A stretch of 34,062 bases of DNA from Syntrophaceae bacterium (GTDB lineage: Bacteria; Desulfobacterota; Syntrophia; Syntrophales; Smithellaceae), in contig PLGI01000080.1 of the NCBI GenBank assembly GCA_003139775.1, positions 1 through 34,062 on the forward strand, read 5' to 3'. Within the stretch, counting starts at the first letter, position 1, and each line of letters begins with the position of its first letter. Below the pieces are notes generated by a model. It was given only the letters and a program-made list of their open reading frames with translations, searched no databases and was not told where the DNA came from. Positions 1,459-32,079 of the stretch are shown in pieces. The translations under genes and the position numbers were made by a program.

Positions 1459-1773
1459 ATGATTGTTACTGTTGTAAATATTATTGTTAAACCTGAAAAT
1501 ATTGATCAGTTTGTTGAAGCAACCATAGAGAACCATCAACATTCGATCAAAGAAAAAGGAAATCTCCGGTTTGATGTCTTACAGCACCGGGATAACCCGG
1601 CGGCATTCACTTTGTATGAAGCCTATGAGTCCGACGAGACGGCTGCCGCGCATAGAAAAACCGCTCATTATTTAAAGTGGCGGGATGCCGTTGAATCCTG
1701 GATGGCTAAGCCGCGTGAAGGTTTCGCCCACAACGTTGTCGCACCGGTGGAAAAATCGGCATGGAAACTATAA
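1459..1773 (+). CDS. LsrG-like antibiotic-biosynthesis-monooxygenase-fold protein
   Basis: A 104-residue single-domain protein of the ABM dimeric ferredoxin-like fold. Residues about 26-70 (NH..S..EKGNLRFDVLQ, then LYEAYES and AAAHRKTAHY) closely resemble, from memory, E. coli LsrG, the isomerase of phosphorylated autoinducer-2 breakdown products. Other ABM proteins are quinol monooxygenases, so the substrate is open. A strong AGGAGG site (1447-1452) fixes the start. Its end overlaps the alcohol dehydrogenase start by 13 bp, which implies translational coupling and a shared pathway acting on small carbonyl compounds. No lsrA/B/C/D/K/R/F genes are present, so a role in AI-2 processing is not supported by context. 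The fold is fairly certain and the activity is not. Confidence 0.85.
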   Translation: MIVTVVNIIVKPENIDQFVEATIENHQHSIKEKGNLRFDVLQHRDNPAAFTLYEAYESDETAAAHRKTAHYLKWRDAVESWMAKPREGFAHNVVAPVEKSAWKL

Positions 1774-3035
1774 ACGATTTTAATTTCCCCGGCCTGCCCA
1801 AAATAGTTTTTGGCGCCGGTACGTTTTCCGGACTTCCTGAAATCATACACTCGTATGGCCGTCATGCGCTCATTGTTATTGGCGGTGAATCGCTCGTAAA
1901 GTCCGGTCGATGGAATGTGCTGGCAAAGCAGCTTAATCAGACCGGCCTTCAATATAAGGCTGTATCCGTATGGGGCGAACCCACAACAAAAACTATCGAT
2001 GCCATTGCTTCTGAATTTCGTAAGACGCCGGTCAACGTCGTTGTGGCCATCGGCGGCGGCAGTGTCATCGACTATGGTAAAGCGATTGCAGCAATGCTGG
2101 CCGAGGATGGCACTCTTCGCGACTACCTGGAAGGTGTCGGAACCAAAAAACCTTCAGGAGCAAAAGTTCCGTTCATCGCCGTTCCGACAACCGCCGGTAC
2201 GGGAAGTGAAGCAACAAAAAATGCCGTCGTGTGCGACCGGAAAGAAGGCTATAAAAAATCTCTCCGGCATGATGCCTATATGCCCGATGCCGCCTTGGTC
2301 GATCCCGAACTGACACTGACAATGCCCCGGCTGCTTACAATCTCCTGCGGGCTGGATGCCGTCTCGCAATTGATCGAATCTTACACTTCAACAAAGGCAG
2401 ATGCCTCTCTCGATTCGCTGGCCTTAAAGGCGCTCTCCGGAGCTTCGGAGGGTCTGCTTCCGCTTTGCCTTGATCGTGGCAATGATATATCTCTGCGCGG
2501 CAAAATGTCGTATGCGGCGCTGGTTTCGGGGATAACGCTCAGCCGTGCCGGGCTTGGCGCAGTGCATGGCATAGCGGGACCTCTGGGCGGACTGTTCCCG
2601 GTGCCGCACGGCGTGGCCTGTGGAAAGCTCCTGTTTCCGGTCATGACCTTTGTTGTAAAAAAGATTATTGACGAAAAAAATCTTGTTGCCCAAAAGCGCT
2701 TTGCCGATATCGGAAGACTTCTAACCGATGATGCAGGTAGTGAAGATATCTTATGTCGTAAGACTCAAATTTCAAAAACGAAGTGCATTGAAATTTGTAA
2801 GTCGAACAATCCCGCTGCAAGCGGAGGATATAATAATGAGGATTATACCCGTGGCTGTAAGCAATTTTTAGATGTTCTTAATAAGTGGACACGGACGTTG
2901 AAGCTTCCTCAGCTTTCCTATTTTGGCATGACGGCTGCTGATATGGCAAAAGCCATCTCGCTTTCAGATAGCAAAAACAGCCCGGCCATTCTCTCCAAAG
3001 AAGAAATGAAAGTTATTCTGGAAATTATTCGCTGA
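1761..3035 (+). CDS. Iron-containing alcohol dehydrogenase, with a repeat-derived insertion
   Basis: A type III (iron-activated) NAD(P)-dependent alcohol dehydrogenase family protein of 424 residues. The Rossmann-like N-terminal half has GGGSVIDYGKAIAA and PTTAGTGSEAT; the C-terminal half is helical and metal-binding. By family knowledge the metal ligands are one Asp and three His. Here Asp199, His269 and His283 are present, but the second ligand position is Gln203 (DAVSQ instead of DAxxH), a variant I recall in some family branches. Residues about 334-364 (nt 2761-2853) are an insertion-like, cysteine-rich stretch whose DNA matches the hairpin repeat at 9594-9729. The reading frame is kept. 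The gene starts inside the LsrG-like gene (ATG 1761). The likely role is oxidation or reduction of a small alcohol or aldehyde; the substrate is unknown. Confidence 0.88.
   Translation: METINDFNFPGLPKIVFGAGTFSGLPEIIHSYGRHALIVIGGESLVKSGRWNVLAKQLNQTGLQYKAVSVWGEPTTKTIDAIASEFRKTPVNVVVAIGGGSVIDYGKAIAAMLAEDGTLRDYLEGVGTKKPSGAKVPFIAVPTTAGTGSEATKNAVVCDRKEGYKKSLRHDAYMPDAALVDPELTLTMPRLLTISCGLDAVSQLIESYTSTKADASLDSLALKALSGASEGLLPLCLDRGNDISLRGKMSYAALVSGITLSRAGLGAVHGIAGPLGGLFPVPHGVACGKLLFPVMTFVVKKIIDEKNLVAQKRFADIGRLLTDDAGSEDILCRKTQISKTKCIEICKSNNPAASGGYNNEDYTRGCKQFLDVLNKWTRTLKLPQLSYFGMTAADMAKAISLSDSKNSPAILSKEEMKVILEIIR
2761..2853 (+). repeat. Hairpin repeat copy inside the alcohol dehydrogenase gene
   Basis: This stretch aligns with the reverse complement of 9594-9729. 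The shared order is an (A)CTCxAATTxC-AAA-CGAAG-GCA block, then TTxGTAAGTxGAACAATCCCGC, then a GAAGCGGAGG or GCAAGCGGAGG block, then ATACCCGTG. Relative to that copy it lacks about 50 bases near its downstream end. It is translated as part of the dehydrogenase (residues about 334-364). See the matching findings entry. Confidence 0.7.
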
Positions 3036-3107
3036 TATATTCAGTTTTTAAAAAGAGAGGCCATGGGAGATTTTACGGACTTGCAACGATTGAAAATTCT
3101 CCTCAGC

Positions 3108-3332
3108 ATTCCCTCCTTTTCTAAAGGAGAACTAGGGAGGATTTGAATAAACTACCTCAATCCCCCTTTACACCCTGAATAGGGGGCACAAGTAAAGGGG
3201 GAAGTAAAAATATTGAATCCATCTTTTATATTCCCCTCTTTTTTCGTGTGCCCTTTAGGGTAAAAGAGGACTAGGGGAGATTTTAACTTCTCAAATCTCC
3301 CTCGCTCCCCCTTTATGAAAAGGGGGAAGAAG
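3108..3332. repeat. Cluster of REP-like C-rich/G-rich hairpins
   Basis: This gap lies between the convergent ends of the dehydrogenase and livF. It holds at least four related imperfect palindromes built from CCCTCC/CCCCCTTT followed by AAAGGAG/AAAGGGGG, at about 3109-3145, 3163-3207, 3232-3282 and 3296-3332. They may act as bidirectional terminators or be simple REP-type repeats. A related unit is at 6771-6810 between livK and livH. No gene is visible in the gap. Confidence 0.6.
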
Positions 3333-6735: not shown

Positions 6736-6770
6736 AGAGTGGTTACGCTATAAAAGTGACTTCCTTATTA

Positions 6771-6810
6771 TTCCCTCCTTTTTTAAAGGAGGGTTAGGTG
6801 GGATTTGAAA
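6771..6810. repeat. REP-like hairpin between livK and livH
   Basis: TTCCCTCCTTTTTT followed by AAAGGAGGGTTAGGTGGGA forms a strong hairpin (CCCTCCTTT with AAAGGAGGG). It matches the first unit of the cluster at 3108. In the operon it could act as a partial terminator or an mRNA stabiliser after livK. Confidence 0.6.
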
Positions 6811-7986: not shown

Positions 7987-8069
7987 GGAATGTCTCCTGT
8001 TTTTCTTCGATATTTTGCCCACAGTTTATAAGGTAAGGTTATGGACGTGTCAATGGAAATATGTTGTTC

Positions 8070-8115
8070 CATTCCTTAATCAAAGCGCTATCTTTGTTGG
8101 CTTAGTCGTCGCCTC
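8070..8115. repeat. Fragment of the 1251/12107 inverted-repeat element
   Basis: TTAATCAAAGCGCTAT-TTTGTTGGC followed by GTCGTCGCCTC matches the left portion of the elements at 1251 and 12107, with internal bases missing. The right terminal repeat is absent. It forms the left edge of the gene-free stretch upstream of livK. Confidence 0.5.
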
Positions 8116-8148
8116 TTTCTTGCCCCACTGAAGCGGGACAGTTCCCAA

Positions 8149-8228
8149 TAGCCAAATGCTATTGGATACCACTGTATGCTTTGCATACGTGATAATTCCA
8201 ATGCGCTACGCTTTCGGAATTGGAGTTT
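8149..8228. repeat. Hairpin-array repeat, copy related to 9594-9729
   Basis: Three hairpins follow one another: AATAGC/GCTATT (8149-8165), GTATGC/GCATAC (8175-8189) and AATTCC/GGAATT (about 8195-8222). The last unit, CGCTTTCGGAATTGGAGTTTC, is nearly identical to 9704-9724. The element ends where the RluA-like fragment begins. Confidence 0.6.
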
Positions 8229-8363
8229 CACGATCACAAAGCCTCTTACCAAAGCATTCTCCGCGCAGCGCGCGAGGCTTTGCTTCATGAATTTCTCTAC
8301 GAATCATTTCCTGACCGGAGCAGAAAATCGATTAAATCTCATCTTGACCAAAAAAGGATTTGA
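8229..8363 (+). pseudogene. Decayed N-terminal fragment of an RluA-family gene
   Basis: Read in frame, 44 codons align without gaps to residues 6-49 of the intact RluA-family protein at 321-1220. By hand count about 30 of 44 residues agree, including YQSIL, EFLxESFPxRS and KSIKS. A TGA (8361-8363) ends the frame exactly where the intact protein continues with Met50, and the catalytic domain is absent. There is no start codon, since the upstream sequence is the hairpin repeat. Confidence 0.75.
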
Positions 8364-9584: not shown

Positions 9585-9593
9585 ATCGTTAAT

Positions 9594-9729
9594 CACGGGT
9601 ATGAACTCCAAAGCAAGCTTTGGAAACAGATTCCGCAGCAAGCTGCGGGGTATTAAACCCTCCGCTTCGCGGGATTGTTCAACTTACCAATTCCGCTGCG
9701 CTTCGCTTTCGGAATTGGAGTTTCAACAA
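9594..9729. repeat. Hairpin-array repeat, full-length copy
   Basis: This lies between the convergent peptidase genes. It is a string of hairpins: CCAAAGCAAGCTTTGG (9607-9622), CCGCAGCAAGCTGCGG (9633-9648), CCGCTTCGCGG (about 9662-9672) and AATTCC...GGAATT (about 9689-9716). The outer parts read ACTCCAAA at the left and GGAATTGGAGTTTC at the right, so the ends are roughly inverted. Related copies are at 8149-8228 and, within a gene, at 2761-2853. Confidence 0.7.
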
Positions 9730-9775
9730 TAAATAGTGATTGTTTGATTTGAGGTCAAGCAACAAACAGCCTCTC

Positions 9776-11785: not shown

Positions 11786-12047
11786 GTGGAGCCCCATCCG
11801 GCAGGAGCCGGAGGCTACCGATAATAATGAGACCCAAGCTTCAGAAACAAAGTGCATAACCTGAAGGTCATCTGCGACTGAAGCTTGCTGGTCGAATGAA
11901 ACTTAGATATTACAAACGCAGTGAAGTAATATCTGTCAGTTGAATTCATCCCGTGAAGCAGAGGATAAAGCGACCTCTCGCAAGTGCAGTCTGCCTTCGA
12001 CCTGATCGGGGGTTGTATTCCTCCCCCGGCTGGAGTTGAGAAATCCA
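11786..12047 (+). repeat. Remnant resembling an IS200/IS605-type right end, copy B
   Basis: It begins GTGGAGCCCC-ATCCGGCAGGAGCCGGAGGCT and runs through TAATAATGAGACCCAA, the GAAGCTTGCTGG word and GAAGCAGAGGATAA to CTCCCCCGGCTGGAGTTGAG. It matches 16480-16648 in the opposite orientation. The final C-rich/G-rich hairpin is eroded on one arm here. Two extra blocks (about 11856-11877 and 11892-11940) are absent from the other copy. No transposase ORF remains, and an open frame on the minus strand here looks non-coding. Confidence 0.55.
11905..11934. repeat. GATATTAC hairpin nested in the copy B remnant
   Basis: AGATATTAC (11905-11913) pairs perfectly with GTAATATCT (11926-11934) around a loop containing ACGCAGTGA. 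The same type of hairpin, with ACTGCGT in the loop when read on the other strand, is at 32042-32072. Confidence 0.6.
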
Positions 12048-12106
12048 AGTCGCGGGATGGAAACAAGCCGGTTGTTCTGAATTACCGGCACAAACGATAA
12101 CATACA

Positions 12107-12235
12107 TTATACCAATTCTAAATCAAAGCGCTATTTTGTTGGCGTCGTTGTCAGGCTTCCTCAACGTATATACAATACGCCTCGTCGCCTCCGCCTAGCC
12201 GCCTCAATATCATCTTTGATTTAAAATGGTATTAG
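12107..12235. repeat. MITE-like inverted-repeat element, copy 2
   Basis: The ends ACCAATTCTAAATCAAAG and (reverse complement of the right end) ACCATTTTAAATCAAAG are inverted. The interior matches copy 1 at 1251-1383, including GCGCTATTTTGTTGGCGTCG and ACAATACGCCTCGTCGCC. It has an extra CCGCCTAGCCG block near 12190 and lacks the CCTGAAGGTC block of copy 1. Confidence 0.75.
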
Positions 12236-16395: not shown

Positions 16396-17111
16396 GATTA
16401 AATTTGCTCCCTGTTTGTAATTAATCAGAAAAAATGCTTTACAAATAACTCTTTTGTAGAAAATTTAATCCCGCTGTTTGGAATCCCCCGGCTTCAGCCG
16501 GGGGAGGAATGCGGTGTAACCCGCGGGAGGTCGCGTTATCCTCTGCTTCGCGGGATAATTCATCCAGCAAGCTTCAGGGCACTGTGTTTCTGAAGTTTGG
16601 GTCTCATTATTATAAGGAGCCTCCGGCTCCTGCCGATGGGGGCTCCACTTCTTTCTTTTGAATAAGTAAGTTATAAAATCAGAAATGTCAATGCACTTAA
16701 TTGAAGTTTGCTTTACAGTCCATCTTTACGCTTAGATAATTTCGTCCTGCAACAGATGAGCCCACTTTCAGTAATAAAATACAGACAATGCCAGGCGCTC
16801 CTTGTAACCTCGCGAAACCCCGCGTGACCTCGTCGCCACCTTTAGGTGGTTAGGTTATTCAGGTTATCAGGTTGCGCTGCTTCGGATTGCTCAAAGAGCA
16901 CTCCCTTCCATATCCACCTCCGTCACTGATTCTGCCCGGCGCATGTTGGGTAACACCTCTCGGAAATTCTCCCGACCTCCGCCAGCGGAGGACTTGGAAT
17001 GATATTATGACACAGCCTCTTAACCGGAAAAAAGATACCAGGGCCGAGTGGTTTTTGGGCGAACTCAATTTATCGTTTGCGGCGGCAGATGTTTTTTGTT
17101 ATTCCTTCTTC
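16396..17111. other. Repeat-rich gap upstream of rsmG
   Basis: It contains the radical SAM promoter side, the IS-like remnant (16480-16648), an AGGTGGTTAGGTTAT / TCAGGTTATCAGGTTG stretch (16845-16875) and a palindromic CCTCCGTCACTG...CCTCCGCCAGCGGAGG unit (16918-16994) related to 28001-28037. The last part (16872-17111) is open in frame with rsmG but looks like repeat plus leader rather than protein. Confidence 0.55.
16480..16648 (-). repeat. Remnant resembling an IS200/IS605-type right end, copy C
   Basis: The strongest feature is a hairpin at 16485-16504 (CCCCCGGC and GCCGGGGG around TTCA) followed by GAGGAATG, a pattern I associate with right ends of IS200/IS605 elements and their guide-type RNAs. 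Beyond it come GAGGTCGCGTTATCCTCTGC, CAGCAAGCTTCAG, GGGTCTCATTATTAT and the GGCTCCTGCC...GGGGCTCCAC end, matching copy B in the opposite orientation. No TnpA or TnpB coding sequence is present. Confidence 0.55.
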
Positions 17112-31923: not shown

Positions 31924-32041
31924 TGCAACTCCTAATAATGTTTAAAGATGTACTTTGCACAAGGGGCAATTCCCTTTGCGCTTTTTATTGTCGGCGAGTC
32001 TCAAATCCCCATTCGCTTCGCTCAGGGGATAGTTCGACTAA

Positions 32042-32072
32042 CGAATATTACTGCGTATGCTTGTAATATTCG
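32042..32072. repeat. GAATATTAC hairpin
   Basis: CGAATATTAC (32042-32051) pairs perfectly with GTAATATTCG (32063-32072). Two more hairpins lie to its left (AAGGG..CCCTT at about 31959-31977 and ATCCCC..GGGGAT at about 32007-32032). The core resembles the hairpin nested at 11905-11934. It lies beyond the end of the ACT gene. Confidence 0.55.
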
Positions 32073-32079
32073 AGTCTCA

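Follow-up and report, generated by a model that had tools for sequence, protein, structure and literature searches.

How does the gene for an iron-type alcohol dehydrogenase (ADH) come to hold, in its reading frame, a segment that resembles a hairpin repeat lying between genes elsewhere in the same 34,062-nucleotide stretch of DNA (the whole of which was analyzed, and is hereafter called the window)? Very probably, a non-autonomous mobile repeat rich in hairpins placed a copy of itself in the gene, in a bacterium of the Smithella type, and translation runs through this copy. The insert is part of a dispersed repeat family, its hairpins are intact, and comparable in-frame copies are present in five other gene families.

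Palindromic repeats in frame are familiar chiefly from Rickettsia, whose members are host-restricted and in which the repeats are usually explained by weak selection. The present family is large and has several in-frame insertions in syntrophs that are anaerobic and presumably live free; it makes that explanation less compelling and widens the test bed, and the existence of both filled and empty sites in related species permits direct tests of gain, exact loss, exchange, and effect on the enzyme.

An in-frame insert that matches an intergenic repeat

Positions 2763–2815 align with 9669–9721 (inverted) over 53 nt, ungapped, at 81% identity. The local alignment of the ADH insert with the intergenic copy scores 72, as compared with a mean of 14.7 and a maximum of 31 among shuffles; none of 5000 shuffles reached the score, and chance resemblance is ruled out. 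A match between 2761–2853 and a minus-strand hairpin repeat at 9594–9729, first noticed in a sequence-only reading of the window, is therefore confirmed, with the unit refined to 9593–9728 (Table 1). A covariance model of the hairpin gives 79.7 bits at 2759–2812 (+) and 80.3 bits at 9672–9725 (−), values that are near-equal by construction, both copies being in the model's alignment. As DNA, the ADH insert folds stably (z −4.1); its best DNA match besides the gene in G008, a genome of the same genus, is 96% over 77 nt and lies elsewhere in the window's own genome.

Table 1. Positions of the ADH gene, its insert, and the repeat copies within the window
Feature	Position	Strand	Basis
Iron-type alcohol dehydrogenase (ADH) gene, 424 aa, holding the insert	1761..3035	+	translation; Pfam PF00465 E 5.6e-47, PF25137 E 1.6e-22
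In-frame ADH insert, 33 codons, residues 333–365	2757..2855	+	ortholog alignment
First hairpin module, 54 nt, stem intact within the ADH gene	2759..2812	+	hairpin model; fold
Second hairpin, 5-bp stem CCGCT/AGCGG	2812..2824	+	fold
Third hairpin (GGATATAAT / ATTATACCC), which closes the element's short form	2826..2850	+	fold
Diverged hairpin-module copy	8183..8230	−	covariance model, 28.6 bits
Intergenic long copy of the hairpin repeat	9593..9728	−	DNA match, hairpin model; boundaries inferred from listed copies
Intergenic copy, T-rich left flank (TTTAT)	9729..9733	−	sequence; flank frequencies
Diverged hairpin-module copy	11828..11895	+	covariance model, 28.7 bits
Hairpin-module copy adjoining the 11828..11895 copy	11897..11951	+	covariance model, 47.5 bits
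Hairpin-module copy	16553..16606	−	covariance model, 49.7 bits
Hairpin-module copy	32027..32079	−	covariance model, 57.5 bits

The insert is present in two of the 12 ADH orthologs spanning the site (the window and G008) and absent from the other 10; one of the 12 is partial and one has an internal stop. A host-coded loop common across the ADH family is ruled out by these 10 orthologs. Their lack of the residues, together with a DNA match far above chance, bears out the proposal that a selfish repeat became a protein segment. The sequence-only reading had further described a gain of about 30 cysteine-rich residues (334–364) without a frameshift; the extra residues and the retained frame stand, but the limits are 333–365 and only two of the 33 residues are cysteines. 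In G008 the insert is 36 residues long. The two inserts differ by four non-synonymous and two synonymous codons and by a 9-nt in-frame indel (counted by eye), and differences that are mostly non-synonymous give no sign of selection on the peptide itself.

A loss of sequence from the ADH copy after insertion, as had been suggested, is only one possible origin of its short length. Short forms of 82–88 nt occur at other loci (L016, L020, L075, L081, and L090), none of them within an ORF extending 90 nt past both copy ends. Because short forms exist outside such ORFs, the ADH copy may already have been short on arrival.

In a named deltaproteobacterial bin (L142), an ADH 91% identical to that of the window is matched only to residue 318, where the contig ends just before the insert site; this is perhaps an assembly break at a repeat.

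Copies, ends, and distribution of the repeat family

The hairpin model has seven matches in the window, two of them to copies that were used in building it. At least 51 DNA pieces matching the repeat were found in the window's own genome, from the best 40 of 216 candidates scored. DNA matches to the in-gene ADH copy occur in 16 of 17 genomes of the genus, and matches to the covariance model in all 17 of these and in 56 of 155 genomes of the order; the genomes compared are mostly fragmented drafts, and copy numbers from the model and DNA searches are lower bounds, the best 37 or 40 candidates per genome having been scored.

Units among the listed copies are 82–222 nt long, varying with the hairpin modules that have been added or are absent. 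Across 92 distinct copies the left flank is TTTAT-like (T at −1 and −4 in 92%, A at −2 in 75%); the repeat starts with TGTG in 62 of the 92 and TGTT in 17, and ends with CCCGTGA, after which come two T (92% and 86%). Unrelated genes contain copies, which occur in either orientation and have gained and lost modules.

Spread of the repeat by a virus or plasmid is unsupported: viral contigs contain no exact match to a 39-nt repeat pattern, and plasmids and phages gave no blastn match to one full repeat copy.

Other repeated sequences were seen in the window. A second interspersed repeat of 61 nt has three copies (1246–1306, 8059–8119, and 12102–12162), the latter two 77% and 70% identical to the first. 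A short pair, 3100–3147 and 6762–6809 (48 nt, 81%), is rich in CTCCTTT/AAAGGAG and is possibly a further palindrome family. Positions 8228–8359 are 81% identical to 335–466, near the beginning of a gene (321–1220, PF00849) for an RNA pseudouridylate synthase; this fragment, which adjoins the diverged repeat copy at 8183–8230, is probably a gene remnant.

In-frame copies in other genes

A search for further copies inside genes, proposed along with the original observation, found five more gene families. In TrmFO, the insert is present in three of 16 orthologs (G010, G006, and G012). The codon before the site in the 13 empty orthologs is TAT (11) or TCG (2), with the next conserved codon directly after it, and the filled orthologs contain no duplication. 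FdhE carries an insert in G006, one of 10 genomes with a close ortholog, and is empty in the other nine; nine of the 10 orthologs were aligned, that of G009 was read from two tblastn pieces, which skip the insert, and in G010 the protein has fewer residues near the insert site as well. A YfcE-like phosphoesterase is filled in G006 and empty in the other two of three orthologs. The 4'-phosphopantetheinyl transferase (PPTase) is filled in G002, one of 16, the 15 empty orthologs being read from unaligned tblastn pieces. Lastly, a GT2-DUF4922 fusion in the window's own genome holds a copy in reverse orientation; seven of eight aligned relatives are empty, and the eighth (G020) contains a different palindrome. 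This last palindrome, in the GT2-DUF4922 linker at locus L240, is in frame and seemingly unrelated to the present repeat (CATTCCCGCGCAGGCGGGAATCC type, judged by eye). Judging by these sequences, palindromes seem to use this linker as a landing spot.

In forward orientation there are eight in-gene inserts, of 90, 99, 99, 108, 120, 138, 153, and 153 nt; all are divisible by three and stop-free in the host frame. Among the remaining copies of the sample, length is divisible by three in 33 of 83, a set defined by locus that possibly includes the GT2 and HemD copies. This difference is the pattern expected from selection for an open frame. The in-gene copies come from 20 regions, picked mainly for long open frames, and from eight other loci, and do not constitute a census; the in-gene peptide search used a frame-1 query, so that the remaining frames are under-sampled. 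DNA similarity by itself yielded 65 copies, 10 of them inside an ORF extending 90 nt past both ends. Four of these were accepted (ADH twice, PPTase, and GT2-DUF4922) and six were set aside (L017, a secretin amino-terminal extension, and the ORFs L026, L065, L074, L076, and L077).

At four further loci, L124 (C168 of the window's own genome), L128, L131, and L133, the repeat codes for protein ends, including that of a HemD/CobA-type fusion. At these loci the repeat seems to replace or add carboxyl-terminal tails.

History of filled and empty sites

In the ADH tree, G007 is the sister of G008 (support 100), and its site is exactly empty; identity between the two genes, by codon position, is 97/99/92%. 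For TrmFO, the tree places G012 with four empty genomes, G008, G001, G009, and G004 (support 100), and away from the filled G010 and G006, whose grouping has support of 60. Because the filled lineages in both genes are separate and have empty relatives, at least two changes are required at each site; gain or exact loss has recurred at the ADH and TrmFO sites. No target duplication is found in the empty and filled pairs of ADH (G007/G008), TrmFO, or the phosphoesterase. The shared odd ends of the two ADH inserts, and a likeness closer than that of their host genes, suggest one source copy that was moved or exchanged. Conversely, the G012 TrmFO insert is without the extra hairpin common to the G010 and G006 inserts, which suggests a separate arrival.

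Occupancy of the same site could reflect independent insertions at a tolerant, T-rich site, a possibility that we consider less likely than not. It is consistent with the G012 TrmFO insert, which stands apart in the tree from those of G010 and G006 and is without their extra hairpin, and with the GT2-DUF4922 linker, where the window's genome has this repeat and G020 an unrelated palindrome. However, TTTAT-like sites are common, making a double hit in each of two genes unlikely unless few such sites are tolerated, and both ADH inserts resemble descendants of a single copy.

One old insertion, followed by several exact losses that restored the target, is another possible history, which we regard as doubtful. 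The window and G008 inserts lie at the corresponding codon, both have the GGxTATAAT/ATTATACCC stem and end in CGTGGC in place of CGTGAT, and G007, the sister of G008, has an exact empty site. Exact excision is a property of IS200/IS605-type elements, and speaks for this history. By inspection, several losses are required on either tree, and the inserts are more alike than the genes that hold them, which argues against an insert as old as the gene split: 91% of bases are identical in the insert (a 36-codon stretch including three flanking codons), compared with 80% in the genes around it, and 92 of 99 in the inserts alone. At third positions, the counts are ~31 of 36 in the insert and ~252 of 388 outside it (Fisher p 0.009, from counts rebuilt from rounded fractions).

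Exchange of an insert-bearing ADH allele between species by recombination would fit an insert that seems more recent than the split of the genes, and the window's insert is matched at up to 95% by copies in other species. In 90-base intervals, however, G008 is 0.89–0.99 identical to G007 along the insert-free gene, and in each interval the distances of G007 and G008 from G000 agree to within 0.03, leaving no G000-like tract; we consider exchange of the allele unlikely.

Constraint on the first hairpin

The first module is 54 nt long in 58 of 59 extracted copies. In a 57-row alignment, which omits L150 (53 nt) and two divergent modules, L026 and L027, 97.7% of cells are paired in the named stem, a percentage raised by the omission, and 12 of 15 pairs have changed on both sides. 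Double-change cells number 110, as compared with 27.8 ± 4.1 in shuffles (reached in 0 of 500). Kinship among copies can beat shuffles without any structure; slid controls, with at most 19 such cells, speak against that here. Further standard pair types show no excess on this measure (20, vs. 20.6 in shuffles, reached in 415 of 500). Run unguided, RNAalifold returned the same helices and one further pair. The first hairpin thus shows strong compensatory change.

Such covariation in a 54-nt module might mark the conserved hairpins as a functional regulatory element, of RNA or DNA, whose overlap with genes is coincidental. This is very unlikely given that copies in unrelated genes point either way and vary in their modules, and given that no Rfam family reaches its gathering score. 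A known RNA family was rejected on the latter result; two weak Rfam matches lie below the gathering score.

Predicted effect on the protein

AlphaFold2 modeling of the ADH from an 18-sequence alignment gave a confident fold (mean pLDDT 83), with values below 50 only at residues 1–5, 126–129, and 325–357. The last of these stretches lies between helices 308–322 and 359–380 and spans most of the insert together with the eight residues before it; it is thus offset by eight residues from the insert (333–365), the end of which joins the next helix. The earlier placement of the insert in the helical half of the protein agrees with this predicted structure. The insert is probably a disordered surface loop, with the dehydrogenase core kept; the TrmFO model reached a mean pLDDT of 44.5, and the disordered-loop reading comes from one protein, the ADH. 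The insert would be tolerated because it lies between two helices and most of it is predicted to be disordered, and from the model we infer that the insert-bearing ADH is made and working.

That the insert is instead left untranslated, cut from the RNA or bypassed by the ribosome, is extremely unlikely: although it is hairpin-rich, and translational bypass of palindromes is known from yeast mitochondria (PMC6649704), all eight forward inserts are stop-free multiples of three and an in-frame 9-nt indel separates the ADH inserts of the two species, a keeping of frame that counts against bypass since a bypassed insert would need no frame constraint.

The metal-site residues of this ADH are Asp199-Gln203-His269-His283; the Gln203 position is Gln also in 11 correctly framed ADH orthologs, and solved relatives have His there. 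The usual ligand pattern of iron-type ADH is Asp-His-His-His. From its sequence, the subfamily with Gln203 may bind metal differently or not at all.

Comparison with known repeats

Palindromic elements of Rickettsia and Wolbachia are units of ~100–150 bp that occur between genes and in frame inside conserved genes (PMC2229807, PMC10969869, and PMC3767692). The repeat described here resembles the Rickettsia palindromic elements (RPE) in being a hairpin repeat found both between genes and in frame within them, with listed units of 82–222 nt. It differs in its modular, multi-hairpin build and TTTAT left flank, and in its host, which is probably a member of the Syntrophales rather than the Rickettsiales; named ADH relatives are Smithella, Syntrophaceae, and deltaproteobacterial bins, and with one named ortholog coming from Smithella sp. 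UBA2180, Smithella is the probable genus. The insert peptide has no match up to E 1 in NCBIfam, which presumably includes RPE models. With no such match and a host probably outside the Rickettsiales, RPE membership is not supported.

REPs tagged with GTAG/CGTC are reported within genes of several species, including recB of two Xanthomonas at about one site (PMC3733652). These too are hairpin repeats inside genes; however, the units here are longer and have the ends TGTGAG...CCCGTGA, with no GTAG or CGTC tag. As for REPs accompanied by RAYT, the two Y1 genes of the window's genome have no repeat copy alongside. Bacterial MITEs (ERIC, Correia, QMITE) are small repeats, non-autonomous and able to form in-frame fusions with genes (PMC2229807 and PMC5896051). 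The present repeat shares these traits, but by eye its 5' TGTGAG and 3' CCCGTGA do not form an inverted pair, and target duplication is absent from the ADH (G007/G008), TrmFO, and phosphoesterase pairs, with FdhE and PPTase junctions indecisive.

The repeat works like RPE and REP but, to judge by sequence and end tags, belongs to neither. While in-frame palindromic repeats are known elsewhere, the open-licence literature matches listed include no description of this hairpin repeat family in Smithella or Syntrophales.

Proposed mobilization

IS200/IS605 elements have hairpins near their ends, a fixed T-rich left flank, and no target duplication. The repeat shares the hairpins near its ends and the fixed T-rich left flank, as well as the lack of duplication at three compared sites, which points to single-strand transposition of the IS200/IS605 type. 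In the window's own genome, no autonomous element with matching ends was found. The mobile repeat would enter 3' of a T-rich, TTTAT-like target without duplicating it, with exact exit possible, and its mobilizing enzyme would be supplied in trans; movement as folded single-stranded DNA, as in IS200/IS605, is more weakly inferred. Insertions that break frame or fold would be removed by selection. Exact exit and a fixed target would account for the empty sister species and for reuse of one site. In its fullest form, the proposal is that a self-folding repeat enters and exactly leaves genes at preferred, codon-phased sites, so that in enzymes of this order a disordered loop would come and go over evolutionary time, reversibly and without a scar; this we regard as unlikely.

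The window's genome encodes two Y1-type transposases (L217 and L218), with no significant repeat match within 1.5 kb on each side of either and with the repeat ends absent. As their ends differ from those of the repeat, they were rejected as the matching transposase. The hairpins at the ends of L217 resemble, by eye, a middle hairpin of long repeat copies.

At the G008 ADH copy (L062, 1498–1552), ATTGT at the left junction pairs with the ACAAT that follows the first hairpin; a tandem GA/GA mismatch remains. From this pairing, the target may be recognized by base pairing.
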